A stretch of 41,793 nucleotides of DNA. Origin: Burkholderiaceae bacterium (GTDB lineage: Bacteria > Pseudomonadota > Gammaproteobacteria > Burkholderiales > Burkholderiaceae_B). The notes below the pieces were generated by a model. It made no database searches, had not been told where the DNA came from, and saw only the letters and a program-made list of their open reading frames with translations. The position numbers and the translations under genes were made by a program. Positions 28,253 through 37,758 of this stretch are shown in pieces; position 1 is the first letter of the stretch, and every line of letters begins with the position of its first letter. Where the stretch lies: contig JAGOAJ010000008.1 in NCBI GenBank assembly GCA_017983955.1, positions 88,184 to 129,976 of the forward strand, read 5' to 3'.

Positions 28253-28324
28253 ATGAAAACCGCTATCTATTATTACGTTACGCCCTGCGCCTACTGGCGC
28301 TGGTGGCGTTCGTATTCTGGGTAG
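28253..28324 (+). CDS. trpL: Tryptophan leader peptide upstream of trpE
   Basis: A 23-codon frame begins MKTAIYYYVTP and ends CAYWRWWRSYSG-stop, so three of its codons are TGG within four positions, preceded by four Tyr codons. It lies 14 bases after gph and about 140 before trpE, and a hairpin with a T tract follows at 28389-28422. This is the layout of E. coli trpL (ending KGWWRTS), where ribosome stalling at Trp codons controls termination. The ribosome site is weak (AAAGA). A different frame of the same DNA is leucine-rich and lacks a start. Recognised by context and codon content rather than homology. Confidence 0.8.
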   Translation: MKTAIYYYVTPCAYWRWWRSYSG

Positions 28325-28340
28325 CGACTATCTATATGCC

Positions 28341-28369
28341 CGGCACCTGATTTAATCGTTAACGTGCCG
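28341..28369 (+). promoter_or_regulatory. Leader hairpin in the trpE attenuator
   Basis: CGGCAC (28341-28346) pairs with GTGCCG (28364-28369) across a 17-base AT-rich loop. It sits between the leader stop and the terminator, the place of the pause or anti-antiterminator stem. The overlapping GCCCGGC at 28338-28344 is also perfectly complementary to GCCGGGC (28409-28415), the second terminator arm, so a competing long-range fold is possible. Confidence 0.5.
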
Positions 28370-28388
28370 TCAGCATTACAGCAAAACT

Positions 28389-28422
28389 AGCCCGGAATCC
28401 AGTTAATGGCCGGGCTTTTTTT
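28389..28422 (+). terminator. Attenuator terminator before trpE
   Basis: AGCCCGG (28389-28395) pairs with CCGGGCT (28410-28416), with CCA/TGG extending the stem inside, followed by seven T (28416-28422). It lies 45 bases before the trpE ATG, within the mRNA leader, where a plain terminator would make no sense unless conditional. Confidence 0.85.
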
Positions 28423-28466: not shown

Positions 28467-29987
28467 ATGACAGAAATAGAATTTAATGCACTGGCCGCGC
28501 AAGGCTACAACCGCATACCGTTAATCACGGAAACCTACGCTGACCTTGATACCCCCCTGGCCATCTACCTGAAACTAGCCCATAGCGGCCCCGAAGGCGG
28601 GCGTAACAGCTGCCTGCTGGAGTCCGTGGTCGGCGGTGAGCGTTTCGGACGGTACTCCTTTATAGGCCTACCGGCTAAAACCGTCATCCGGGCCAGCGGC
28701 AATATCACTGAAGTGGTGCATCTGGGCAATGTGATAGAAACCCACAAAGGCGACCCGCTACACTTCATAGAGCAATATCAGAAACGCATCAAAGTGGCCA
28801 TGCGCCCTGGCATGCCTAGATTTGCGGGTGGTTTGGCGGGCTATTTCGGCTACGACGCCGTACGTCATATAGAACCACGTCTGGGGCCTGCCACCAAGCC
28901 CTTCCCCGCCGGCCAGGACGAGGGCACGCCAGACATCATGCTGTTGCAAATAGATGAGCTGGTGATCGTGGATAACCTGGCTGGTCGCACCTACTTGCTG
29001 GTATACGCCGACCCTGCACAACCCGAAAGCTACGCACGCGCCAAACGTCGCCTGAAGGAGCTTCGCGAAAAGCTACGTCAGCCCGTAGTCATTCCTTACG
29101 CCTACGCCAGCCTGCAAACCGAGGCCCAGCGCGACTTCCACAAGGACGACTACCTGAAGGCCGTCAAAAAGGCCAAAGAATACATAGAAGCGGGCGACCT
29201 GATGCAAGTACAGATCGGTCAGGTCATTTCCAAACCCTTCCGTGATTCGCCGCTGTCGCTATACAGGGCGTTGCGTTCGCTGAACCCCTCGCCTTACATG
29301 TACTACTGGAATTTCGACAACTTCCAGGTCGTGGGTTCTTCGCCAGAAATTTTGGTACGCCAGGAAATCATCAGCCAAGAAGATCGCCAGAAAACCATGG
29401 TTACCATACGCCCTCTGGCTGGCACGCGACCACGTGGCGCGACGCCAGAACTAGACGCCAAACTGGCCGAAGAACTGCTGGCTGACCCCAAAGAGCGTGC
29501 CGAACACGTCATGCTTATCGACTTGGCGCGTAACGACATAGGTCGGGTCGCCAAAACCGGTACCGTAGAAGTCAGCGACACCATGACCATAGAGCGCTAT
29601 TCCCACGTCATGCACCTGGTGTCCAACGTCACCGGCGAACTGAACGACGGCCTAAGCAATATGGACGTGCTTCGCGCCTCGTTCCCAGCCGGCACGCTGA
29701 CTGGCGCCCCTAAGGTGCGCGCAATGGAAGTTATTGACGAGCTGGAACCCGTGCGCCGCGGCATCTACGGCGGTGCAGCAGGCTACTTAAGCTATGGTGG
29801 GGAAATGGACGTGGCCATCGCCATACGCACAGGGATCATCAAAGACGGCATGCTGTATGTGCAGGCTGCAGCAGGCATAGTGGCTGACTCTGATCCAGAA
29901 AAGGAATGGCAGGAAACCGAAGCCAAGGCACGTGCGGTATTACGGGCCGCCGAACAAGTCCAATTTGGCCTGGATGAACCGATTTAA
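28467..29987 (+). CDS. trpE: Anthranilate synthase component I
   Basis: A 506-residue chorismate-utilising enzyme that makes anthranilate with ammonia passed from TrpG. The N-terminal feedback site LLESVVGGERFGRYSFIG carries the LLES motif linked to tryptophan inhibition. The catalytic C-terminal half shows MQVQIGQVIS, SSPEILVRQE, RPLAGTRPRG, LIDLARNDIGRV and APKVRAMEVIDELEP. Nothing is missing. The gene is preceded by a leader peptide and terminator. The next trp gene, trpG, is 5.4 kb away instead of adjacent. Confidence 0.97.
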   Translation: MTEIEFNALAAQGYNRIPLITETYADLDTPLAIYLKLAHSGPEGGRNSCLLESVVGGERFGRYSFIGLPAKTVIRASGNITEVVHLGNVIETHKGDPLHFIEQYQKRIKVAMRPGMPRFAGGLAGYFGYDAVRHIEPRLGPATKPFPAGQDEGTPDIMLLQIDELVIVDNLAGRTYLLVYADPAQPESYARAKRRLKELREKLRQPVVIPYAYASLQTEAQRDFHKDDYLKAVKKAKEYIEAGDLMQVQIGQVISKPFRDSPLSLYRALRSLNPSPYMYYWNFDNFQVVGSSPEILVRQEIISQEDRQKTMVTIRPLAGTRPRGATPELDAKLAEELLADPKERAEHVMLIDLARNDIGRVAKTGTVEVSDTMTIERYSHVMHLVSNVTGELNDGLSNMDVLRASFPAGTLTGAPKVRAMEVIDELEPVRRGIYGGAAGYLSYGGEMDVAIAIRTGIIKDGMLYVQAAAGIVADSDPEKEWQETEAKARAVLRAAEQVQFGLDEPI

Positions 29988-34797: not shown

Positions 34798-34902
34798 ATG
34801 GCTGCTTCTGCATTCGTATCCCAGAACCCGTAAGGCGAACTCGTGTCATCGTTTGCCTCTGTTGAGACGCCCAACAAGTAAAGTAAGCTTAACCCTAACG
34901 CG

Positions 34903-34921
34903 TCTGACAGTACATGTCAGA
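34903..34921. promoter_or_regulatory. 19-base palindrome upstream of a candidate trpG promoter
   Basis: TCTGACA-GTACA-TGTCAGA is a perfect 7-5-7 inverted repeat directly before the -35 box candidate. It looks like a dimer-binding site and is unlike the known TrpR operator. Confidence 0.55.
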
Positions 34922-34951
34922 TCGACATACCAACCCATCTCGGTTTAAAAT
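34922..34951 (+). promoter_or_regulatory. Candidate promoter for trpG leader
   Basis: TCGACA (34922-34927), 18 bases, TAAAAT (34946-34951). A start near 34958 would give a transcript leader of about 390 bases before trpG, containing the leader peptide. Moderate match only. Confidence 0.45.
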
Positions 34952-35037
34952 GGTACATTAAGCCTATCGGGCCATGTCCAGCATACTTATATGCCACACG
35001 GCCACATAAGCAACTCTTGTGGTTTACCGGTAATCTC

Positions 35038-35088
35038 ATGAATACTTACGCAACGTTCAGCTCAGCTCAGTGGTGGCGCTCCTTCTAG
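35038..35088 (+). CDS. Second tryptophan leader peptide, upstream of trpG
   Basis: A 16-codon frame, MNTYATFSSAQWWRSF-stop, with two adjacent TGG codons near the end, about 260 bases before trpG. Its end WWRSF resembles the trpE leader's WWRSY and E. coli trpL's WWRTS. The start has no strong ribosome site. Just after the Trp codons CGCTCC can pair with GGAAGCG (a hairpin over the leader stop), as expected for a segment-1 stem. No later hairpin has a proper T tract, so the mechanism (attenuation or another) is not shown. Confidence 0.65.
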   Translation: MNTYATFSSAQWWRSF

Positions 35089-35260
35089 GAAGCGGCACGT
35101 CGTTGCGATTCAAATCGCGCCCTGCCGTCGTATCGGACAGGCAACGCGAATCAAACAGCATCCGGCACGGCGGCTCCCACACCAAGGAGCACACCCTGAT
35201 GCTATCTAGCCCCACACTATTATTTTCGGTTCTGTCCCGGCATAACAGCCAGGTCAACGA

Positions 35261-35288
35261 TTGCGCACGCGCAGTAACGTGTGCGCGA
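35261..35288 (+). promoter_or_regulatory. Stable hairpin in trpG leader
   Basis: GCGCAC (35263-35268) pairs with GTGCGC (35281-35286) and wobble pairs extend it to about 11 base pairs (35261-35288). It lies 60 bases before trpG. No T run follows, so it may be an RNA structure rather than an intrinsic terminator. Confidence 0.5.
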
Positions 35289-35350
35289 TGGCGTAGCTCC
35301 TTGTCTGCTGTCTTGTCCATAAACATCACACTGAATATTACGGAGCCGCC

Positions 35351-35917
35351 ATGTCTATCTTGATGCTTGATAATTACGATTCATTTACCTATAACCTAGT
35401 GCAGTATTTTGGCGAATTAGGCGCCGAAGTACATGTGCATCGCAACGACCAAATCAGTATCGCTGACGTCGTCGCCATGAACCCCTCGCGCATATGTGTA
35501 TCGCCGGGACCATGCTCGCCCGCCGAGGCCGGTATTTCGGTTCCTCTGATCCAACACTTTGCCGGCAAAGTCCCCATACTGGGCGTATGCCTAGGCCACC
35601 AGGCCATAGGCGCGGCCTTTGGGGGACATATCATCAAAGCCAAGCAGCTGATGCACGGTAAGACCTCGCTGATTGCCCATAGCGGCACCGATCTGTTTCA
35701 GGGCCTGCCATCGCCCTATACCGTGACTCGCTACCATTCGCTGGCCATAGACCCGGACCGCCTGCCAAATTGTCTGGAAGCCACCGCCCACACTGAAGAC
35801 GGTGAAATCATGGCCATACGCCACAAGACACTGCCCGTCTACGGGGTGCAGTTCCACCCTGAGTCCATACTCAGCGAGCACGGACACGCCCTGCTTAAAA
35901 ACTTTCTGACTATTTAA
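35351..35917 (+). CDS. trpG: Anthranilate synthase component II (glutamine amidotransferase)
   Basis: A 188-residue class-I amidotransferase that supplies ammonia to TrpE (and possibly PabB). The catalytic Cys is in [10 protein letters not shown], and His and Glu are in VQFHPESI. It begins [22 protein letters not shown], the normal family start. GGAG lies 5 bases before the ATG. It is followed by trpD after 12 bases. It is not next to trpE, which is 5.4 kb upstream, so it must have its own promoter and leader region. Confidence 0.97.
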
Positions 35918-35929
35918 TGTGAAGCCATC

Positions 35930-36967
35930 ATGTCAACGTTAATTACCCCTACCCAAGCCCTGACGCGCTGTATAGAGCACCGTGAAATTTTTCATGATGA
36001 AATGCTGCACTTGATGCGTATGCTGATGCGTGGCGAAGTGTCGCCCCAGATTGCCAGCGCCTTATTGATGGGTTTACGCGTCAAAAAAGAAACCGTGGGC
36101 GAAATCACCGCCGCCGCCCAGGTCATGCGTGAATTCGCACTGCCCGTGCATACCCCAGACCCTGAAAACCTGTTGGATATGTGCGGTACCGGCGGTGACG
36201 GCTCGAACACCTTCAATATATCTACGGCTGCCATGTTCGTTGCAGCCGCGGCTGGCGTAAAGATTGCCAAGCATGGCGGTCGCAGCGCCTCGTCGTCGTC
36301 AGGCAGCGCCGATGTTCTGGAAGCCCTGGGCGCCTGCGTCACCCTAAGTCCGGAACAGGTCGCCGACAGCATAGCTGCCACCGGCATAGGATTTATGTTT
36401 GCGCCTGCTCATCATGCGGCCATGAAAAACGTGGCTGCAGTACGCAAAGAACTGGGCGTACGTACCATATTCAATATCCTGGGGCCATTGACCAATCCGG
36501 CCAATGCCGCTAACCAGCTGATGGGTGTATTTCACCCTGATCTGGTGGGCATACAAGTACGCGTGCTGCAGCGTCTGGGTTCTAAGCATGTGCTGGTTGT
36601 GCATGGCAAAGACGGCATGGACGAAGCGTCCTTGGGGGCAGCCACCCTGGTGGGCGAATTAAAAGACGGTATTATCAGCGAATACGAAATCCATCCCGAA
36701 GATTTTGGCATGACCATGGTGTCGAATCGTTCGGTCAAAGTAAGCAGCCGCGAAGCATCTGCCGCCATGCTGACCGAGGCCCTGGAAAACACACCGGGAA
36801 CTGCCCGTGATATCGTAGGCTTTAACGCTGGGCTGGCCATTTACGCCGGTAATAAAGCCACGTCCATACAAGACGGCCTGAACCAGGCATTTGATCTTAT
36901 CGCCAATGGTGCTGCACGCAGCAAATTGGACGAATTCATTACTTACACACGGAAGTGTTCCGCATGA
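35930..36967 (+). CDS. trpD: Anthranilate phosphoribosyltransferase
   Basis: A 345-residue enzyme that joins anthranilate to PRPP. The PRPP loop is [15 protein letters not shown] near residue 84. [19 protein letters not shown] and [18 protein letters not shown] are conserved anthranilate-site segments, and the hinge [12 protein letters not shown] follows. It overlaps trpC by four bases (ATGA at 36964). Confidence 0.97.
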
Positions 36968-37758
36968 ACGATATACTCGCCACGATCTTACAAACCAAGA
37001 AAATAGAGGTCGCTACAGCCCGTCAAATGCGCAGCGAAGCTGATTTGCTGCGCGAAGCAAAAATCCGCAAAGATTTGCGCGGTTTTGCCCGTGCCATCGA
37101 AGAAAAAATCGCACAGGGAAAACCAGGTGTTATTGCGGAAATTAAGAAAGCTTCGCCATCCAAAGGCGTGATACGGGAAAACTTCAACCCTGTGGAAATC
37201 GCCAGTTCGTATGCCGCGCACGGTGCGGCCTGCCTTTCAGTACTGACCGATGTGCAATATTTTCAGGGGTCCTACGACTATCTGCGCCAGGCCCGTGCTG
37301 CCTGCACATTGCCCGTACTGCGCAAAGACTTCATGATAGATCCCTACCAGATCATCCATGCGCGCGCCTTGGGGGCAGACTGTATCTTGTTGATCGTGGC
37401 CGCCCTAAGCATCCATCAGCTACGGGAATTTGAAGACCTGTCCATAGAACTAGGCATGGACGTGCTGGTTGAAGTGCATGATCAGGATGAATTGGATATT
37501 GCCCTGCAGCTGAAAACACCGCTACTGGGGATTAACAACCGCAACCTGCGCACCTTTGAAACCTCGCTACAGAACACCATACAGTTGCTGGATGGAATCC
37601 CCAAAGACAAGCGGGTTATTACCGAAAGCGGAATACTTACCCCCCAGGATGTACAGTTGATGCGCGAACACCATGTTGATGCCTTCCTGGTGGGCGAGGC
37701 CTTTATGCGTGCACCTGAACCTGGCGTCGCACTACAAGAGTTGTTCTTTACCCCATGA
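36964..37758 (+). CDS. trpC: Indole-3-glycerol phosphate synthase
   Basis: A 264-residue TIM-barrel enzyme without a fused TrpF domain. Catalytic Lys/Glu segments are [40 protein letters not shown] and VITESGI. It starts at 36964 inside the trpD stop codon; a GTG at 36955 is a less likely alternative. Its own stop overlaps the ATG of the HIT gene (ATGA). Confidence 0.96.

Follow-up and report, generated by a model that had tools for sequence, protein, structure and literature searches.

The stretch of DNA analysed here (41,793 bases, hereafter the window) contains a conserved Trp leader RNA of a non-terminator type, which is tied to the splitting of the trp operon and which in two genomes is located on mobile elements. 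The sequence-only reading of the window had reported a second Trp leader peptide in front of the separated trpGDC genes. The finding is real, and it is larger than first reported: the leader peptide is the 5' part of a conserved RNA of approximately 130 nt. No description of a trpGDC leader in this lineage, or of a leader-carrying element that targets trpG, was found in the titles and abstracts of the open-access literature, a scope outside which most subscription papers lie.

The trpGDC leader peptide and the conserved RNA

The window carries trpE (28467..29987, plus strand; TIGR00564 above cut-off) and, 5.4 kb away and separated from it by genes of other families, trpG (35351..35917, plus strand; TIGR00566 above cut-off), which adjoins trpD (35930..36967, plus strand; TIGR01245 above cut-off) and trpC (36955..37758, plus strand; NF001373 above cut-off). 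The trpGDC leader peptide, MNTYATFSSAQWWRSF-stop (35038..35088, plus strand), is encoded by a frame of 16 codons, running from the ATG at 35038 through tandem TGG TGG codons at 35071-35076 to the TAG at 35086-35088, at a distance of 262 nt from trpG. By eye, its start lacks a strong Shine-Dalgarno sequence. It is the sole ATG...WW...stop open reading frame of this geometry on both strands of the window, and only 4 of 5,000 dinucleotide shuffles of positions 34901-35350 yield such a frame; chance is therefore a poor explanation. A search for a promoter upstream of the leader returned one weak match, with 0.8 expected in shuffles, which was not used.

Frame and Trp codons are both kept in relatives. 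The one congener compared has the peptide MSTFATFSSAQWWRSF, and an alignment of 51 non-identical sequences from 55 loci, including the relic copy L159, shows an in-frame ATG and a peptide of 14-17 residues throughout (16 residues in 39 copies), only ATG starts having been admitted. All 51 copies retain the tandem Trp codons, the length of the peptide and the position of its stop, and a CGC codon directly follows the Trp codons in every one of them. The reported leader with its tandem Trp codons thus stands. The WWRS(Y/F) ending that was said to be common to the trpGDC and trpE leaders is indeed present in both leaders of this genome, but it is not a shared element: trpG leaders end in WWRF plus one residue in 43 of the 51 copies, trpE leaders usually end in ...WRWWR... 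followed by several residues, and the RNA on the 3' side differs. A kinship of the two leaders is not supported beyond the Trp codons.

The trpE leader peptide of the window, MKTAIYYYVTPCAYWRWWRSYSG (28253..28324, plus strand), has similar counterparts in 36 of 37 relatives and is followed by an intrinsic terminator (AGCCCGG...CCGGGCT plus T-run; 28389..28422, plus strand) seen in the sequence and called by a terminator scan. The region 28253-28422, with a leader ending in ...WRWWRSYSG and a CCCGG terminator, is a classical trpE attenuator. For comparison a set of 38 trpE leaders was used, comprising that of the window, 20 from other split genomes and 17 from genomes in which trpE and trpG are adjacent. 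A Trp leader frame was found by scan in 37 of these and a hairpin with T-run was called in 34, of which 26 are the CCCGG...CCGGG terminator before trpE and eight are another, lowest-energy hairpin; three of the four leaders lacking a call come from split genomes. The same scan called a hairpin with T-run in 0/51 trpG leaders, and it made no call on the plus strand between leader and trpG in the window. The remark of the sequence-only reading that no T-tract terminator follows the trpGDC leader can thus be extended to all aligned copies, and since no intrinsic terminator was found, the translational and/or Rho-dependent control that it had considered has become likelier. Classical transcription attenuation, in which an intrinsic terminator would act at trpGDC as at trpE, could build on the Trp leader and the alternative hairpins that are present, but given these scan results and a last hairpin that runs into the start codon it is already disfavoured, and we regard it as very improbable.

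The wider RNA became apparent from a TrpG search of 61 genomes, in which the best 30 loci were examined. In 20 of these trpE ends just upstream of trpG. The other ten have no trpE within 1.5 kb, and nine of them contain a short open reading frame whose product closes with WWR and two more residues. Only locus L099 (genome G033) has no such WWR leader frame. Among the relatives a stretch of about 130 nt 3' of the Trp codons is strikingly conserved. A sequence-only model (R1), built from ten sequences including that of the window, matches the window at 35064..35189 (plus strand; G000:C33:123247-123372) with an E-value of 5.2e-26. At E ≤ 1e-12 it gives 52 matches in 51 of 268 genomes of the family, counted as 17 genera; 14 more matches at E 0.001-0.01 were taken as chance. 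Outside the family, 300 genomes drawn from the order gave one match at E ≤ 1e-12 (G397), and 274 class-level genomes gave a match only in the window's own genome, in a sample that may or may not include Pseudomonas. In G397, the only strong copy outside the family (L143, L228), there is no trpE in the ~9.9 kb upstream of trpG, and its congener G358 has no R1 match. Nearly all distinct copies of the element (51 of 53) sit directly upstream of trpG-trpD; the other two are L159 and L172.

The presence of the element tracks the split between trpE and trpGDC across the family, as supported by comparison of the genome sequences. Scoring covered 106 of the 268 genomes, those in which both places were typed by hand from the best matches listed: the element occurs in 28 of 30 genomes with trpE and trpG apart, versus one of 76 with the two genes adjacent. 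The lone copy in an adjacent genome is an orphan in G080, on another contig and away from trpG. The two split genomes without a match are G253, whose trpG is too close to a contig end for a judgement, and G172, which has the 3' part of the element only; its truncated copy before trpG (L280; GGCATGGCGGCTCC...AGGAG) has no leader peptide. Genome G033, which is split and lacks the element, falls outside the 106, its trpE not being among the matches listed. At least five genera (g4, g14, g30, g62 and g67) include genomes of both the split and the adjacent state, and a TrpG+TrpD tree with 57 tips requires 13 Fitch changes, a number to be read with caution, as the tree is a quick FastTree of the genes concerned in which four outgroup tips did not group together. 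These two results indicate that the association of the element with the split is a repeated one. The split versus adjacent contrast inside genera provides ready-made test pairs.

Folding of the leader RNA and a model for control of translation initiation

Folds downstream of the leader, which the sequence-only reading had proposed to compare in related genomes, turned out to belong to a conserved RNA with hairpins that had been overlooked. The first hairpin, H1 (pairing 1:2a; 35077..35094, plus strand; one mismatch in the window), starts just 3' of the Trp codons and contains the stop codon of the leader. Its pairing is maintained in 99% of cells in 35 representatives (the aligned copies below 88% identity), with 12 compensatory cells versus at most 7 in shuffles. 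Hairpin H3 (3:3'; 35117..35147, plus strand), with a folding z-score of -2.5 in the window and a mean of -3.7 over the 51 copies, includes the hub strand 3, GCCGTCGTATCGG, at 35124-35136. Strand 3, given as GCCGCCGU and in its window form as GCCGUCGU, has strand 4, ACGGCGGC, as a further possible partner. Strand 4 (CCGGCACGGCGGCTCC; 35162..35177, plus strand; also given as GGCGGCTCC) has, by alignment and complementarity, two alternative partners: strand 3, or the region of the Shine-Dalgarno sequence and start codon, which forms strand 5. The predicted hairpin 4:5 (35164..35203, plus strand) covers the Shine-Dalgarno sequence GGAG (35186-35189) and the ATG at 35199-35201, and in the window it is predicted to pair four of four Shine-Dalgarno bases and two of three start-codon bases.

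Comparison of the copies supports both the mutually exclusive strands and the sequestering hairpin. In the predicted default fold at least three of the four Shine-Dalgarno bases are paired in 49 of 51 copies, and in 30 of 35 representatives the hidden start is followed by a codon whose first base is C or T, which is what a pairing with strand 4 calls for. The two exceptions, L176 and L178, have no such fold; by eye, they nevertheless show a compensatory change (AGUA/UACU and AGCG/UGCU). The mean z-score of hairpin 4:5 is modest (-1.7). Complementarity relative to shuffles in the 35 representatives gave z-scores of -4.1 for 1:2a, -3.9 for 3:3', -3.4 for 3:4, -2.3 for 1:3 and -2.1 for 4:5. Compensatory changes exceeded those in shuffles for H1 alone and not for H2, 3:4, 4:5 or 2a:2b (H3 was not counted). 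It can be argued that the 3:4 pairing is selected, since strands 3 and 4 are nearly invariant while their local partners vary, with the reservation that invariance is not covariation.

The start codon hidden in hairpin 4:5 is that of trpG itself in five of the 51 copies. In 45 copies, including that of the window, it starts a second open reading frame, ORF2, and in the remaining one, L159, trpG is absent. The ORF2 of the window encodes 54 residues (35199..35363, plus strand) and shares its last 13 nt with the beginning of trpG. ORF2 is not conserved in sequence across genera and has a length of 18-85 residues among the 45 copies, one of which runs in frame into trpG. In that copy, L133 (G258), the predicted TrpG has a 34-residue N-terminal extension from the hidden start. 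The junction of ORF2 with trpG is supported by comparison of reading frames: in 36 of the 45 copies ORF2 terminates no more than 25 nt from the trpG start, whereas stops in the alternative frames do so in 6 and 9 copies, and the same holds for 24 of 31 representatives, versus 6 and 8.

On the basis of these features we consider it fairly probable that the element is a ribosome-mediated attenuator of trpGDC that acts on translation initiation and not via an intrinsic terminator. With ample tryptophan the ribosome would complete the 16-residue peptide, and strands 4 and 5 would pair, hiding the Shine-Dalgarno sequence and start codon. With little charged tRNA-Trp available, the ribosome would stall on UGG UGG, strand 3 would pair with strand 4 and the Shine-Dalgarno sequence would open. 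In the commoner layout, which is that of the window, the opened site would start ORF2, which ends at the trpG start, and by translational coupling the ribosomes reading ORF2 would pass on to trpG; where the layout is direct, the opened site would be trpG's own start. The element would thereby keep a Trp response for a trpGDC unit that has been parted from trpE. If this is correct, a proteobacterial trp operon is under leader-peptide control at the start of translation instead of at a terminator, and the terminator attenuator at trpE offers a natural side-by-side comparison in the same cell.

How stalling would favour the 3:4 pairing was addressed with an equilibrium folding model with ribosome footprints. 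The ensemble-average cost of forming 3:4 in 34 representatives (L178 was dropped because its 4:5 core is unpaired) is 2.7-3.9 kcal/mol, which corresponds to two rival folds of similar energy: the means are 3.9 kcal/mol with no ribosome, 2.7 and 2.9 kcal/mol with a ribosome at the first and second Trp codon, and 3.1 kcal/mol with a ribosome at the stop codon. The mean energies for opening the Shine-Dalgarno sequence in the 51 copies are 6.2, 5.5, 5.6 and 5.9 kcal/mol for the same four states. A stalled ribosome did not produce a clear switch in this model: relative to a ribosome at the stop codon the opening energy differs by -0.4 kcal/mol, with changes above 0.5 kcal/mol downwards in 15 and upwards in 9 of the 51 copies, and the cost of 3:4 shows no clear response either (mean -0.36 kcal/mol; 13 lower and 9 higher of 34). 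A simple relay through pairings 1:2, 2:3, 3:4 and 4:5 gave the wrong sign and was rejected; 2a:3 and 1:3 are both enriched in complementarity, and no choice was made between relays via the one or the other.

Since the folding model gave no clear response to a stalled ribosome, the switch step of the proposed attenuator is one that we infer, and as the response at equilibrium is not clear, the suggested direction of control, like the Trp response itself, rests on analogy with biosynthetic attenuators. The site remains closed in all ribosome states tried under equilibrium folding, which would also be expected if the element were a fixed, Trp-independent damper of translation with the leader peptide as a relic; we think this improbable, given that every copy retains the tandem Trp codons, the length of the peptide and the place of its stop.

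The favoured initiation control may not act alone. The ORF2 region is rich in C and poor in G, with a C/G ratio above that of trpG in 31/31 representatives (medians 1.89 versus 1.09), and only 1.3% of sense coding windows reach 1.89 or more. Among the controls the median is 1.16 upstream of the leader and 1.40 before trpE, a region which is itself somewhat skewed. Translation of ORF2 would thus shield a C-rich, G-poor RNA that Rho could otherwise use, and exposure of unread ORF2 to Rho probably operates alongside control of initiation. Alternatively, attenuation might be mainly Rho-dependent: the hairpin would only set the translation of ORF2, bare C-rich ORF2 RNA would load Rho, which would stop transcription ahead of trpG, and direct control of trpG would be minor. 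The uniform skew, not seen upstream of the leader, would fit such a mechanism, as would the variable length and amino acids of ORF2 between a start signal and an end point that are kept. However, the five copies lacking ORF2 hide trpG's own site, the window's own ORF2 region falls short of the median with a ratio of only 1.38, and sequence does not allow Rho sites to be called with certainty. A mainly Rho-dependent mechanism is therefore a serious possibility to which we give somewhat less than an even chance.

Relation to known leader systems

Among known systems the element is best filed, on its sequence features, under ribosome-mediated attenuation as a new variant, its Trp response being a proposal. 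The ribosome-mediated trp attenuator is typified by trpL of E. coli. The trpGDC element shares with such attenuators a short peptide with tandem Trp codons, a stop codon within hairpin 1 and a strand with several partners. It differs from them in that no terminator or U-tract was found, in that its last strand hides the Shine-Dalgarno sequence and start codon, and in that it has no Rfam counterpart: the window and eight relatives gave no Rfam 15 match at gathering score, and a permissive scan over positions 34950-35400 returned a single match at chance level. Ribosome-mediated trp attenuators of Actinobacteria are described in PMC1262725.

The sequence-only reading had drawn a parallel with Pseudomonas putida; in Pseudomonas trpE and trpGDC are likewise split and trpGDC has a leader of its own. 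Attenuation of Pseudomonas trpGDC was reportedly described by Olekhnovich and Gussin in 2001. In contrast to the element studied here, the leader MIHLSSIITSLIKAFARWRWRA, derived from P. aeruginosa, lacks the conserved element as judged by eye. It is encoded by a GTG-started frame upstream of trpG in a P. aeruginosa-derived phage record (L216, 759-827), ends in ARWRWRA and has no terminator call. Premature 3' ends of Pseudomonas trpGDC near a GTG-started upstream frame are described in PMC8297930.

Three further systems resemble parts of the model. In translational attenuators of the erm type a stalled leader ribosome frees a hidden Shine-Dalgarno sequence, as in the model for trpGDC, but the stall is drug-induced, the genes controlled are resistance genes and there is no ORF2 link. 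In the case of rtpA (anti-TRAP) of B. subtilis, ribosome stalling in the leader governs how the following gene is translated, and tryptophan is the amino acid concerned, as proposed for trpGDC; the mechanism differs from the RNA relay seen at trpGDC. Unlike the trpGDC element, rtpA control concerns a regulator, in a Firmicute. T-boxes, finally, bind tRNA directly. Like the trpGDC element, the actinobacterial LEU element has a leader frame and the ileS T-box hides a Shine-Dalgarno sequence, but genes and folds are different. The translational control of rtpA by tRNA-dependent ribosome stalling is described in PMC11255114, and amino-acid control by the LEU element and Shine-Dalgarno-hiding ileS T-boxes in PMC1262725.

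Mobile elements at trpG

In two genomes, G102 and G135, integrative elements are inserted within the first nine trpG codons and carry the leader at their trpG end. In G102 only the first nine codons of trpG remain behind trpE, and an integrase gene comes next; G004, of the same genus, has an uninterrupted trpE-trpGDC. The trpGDC genes of G102 lie on another contig, behind genes common to two other genomes (80-87% nucleotide identity), and the order at the trpG end is leader peptide MTRTASTNIALWWRFQ, element, ORF2 and trpG start. One contig of G135 has the old leader and seven codons of trpG adjoining an integrase gene (Pfam PF13356, PF22022 and PF00589), and on a second contig trpGDC has a different leader (WWWRFS), located behind ParA- and AcaB-like genes. 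In each genome the two contigs presumably represent the two ends of one element. The integrases of G102 and G135 are 86% identical, the next best in the 268 family genomes being 59%.

The first trpG codons are the insertion site of integrase-bearing elements in four genomes (G102, G135, G033 and G193; loci L218, L225, L284 and L257). The integrases beside the trpG remnants of G033 and G193 share 47% and 49% identity with the G135 enzyme, and neither genome has the leader element at its trpG. An R2-pyocin cluster is located between trpE and trpG in four P. aeruginosa strains, according to PMC7344871.

Over 229 nt the leader of G102 shares 93% identity with that of G163, which belongs to another genus, while identity across the whole match of 1,709 nt, covering the leader, trpG and a portion of trpD, is 81%; this difference suggests a recent transfer of the leader. 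In the 20 interval loci of 19 split genomes and in the window, no nucleotide match over 150 nt to pieces of these integrative elements was found, so most copies of the element do not look like recent insertions. In a translated comparison for mobile remnants in the split intervals, coverage was high for many GC-rich loci, and the result was set aside as uninformative. Plasmid records yielded diverged trp genes only, none covering 80% of the query.

It appears to us about an even chance that trpG-targeting elements carry a Trp leader, Shine-Dalgarno-hiding RNA, ORF2 and a new trpG start (with a presumed promoter), that insertion cuts off the old leader and supplies a non-terminator Trp switch, and that this has helped to spread the element among genera. 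If so, mobile elements would bring an amino-acid-sensing leader to the host operon which they interrupt, an unusual way to limit harm to the host, and the trpE-trpG junction would be an insertion site worth surveying. The RNA might instead belong to the mobile elements and merely mark old insertions between trpE and trpG. Its presence on the integrative elements of G102 and G135 and the close match of the G102 leader to another genus are compatible with such a marker, but the split intervals compared and the window hold no match over 150 nt to pieces of these elements and the other two islands at trpG, in G033 and G193, have no leader, which makes this alternative unlikely.

The orphan copy in G080 is of the G135 type and lies between inverted copies of a DDE_Tnp_1/DUF772 transposase gene (L227, 9300-9830; G080:C7), in an assembly with 6% contamination in which trpE and trpG are adjacent.
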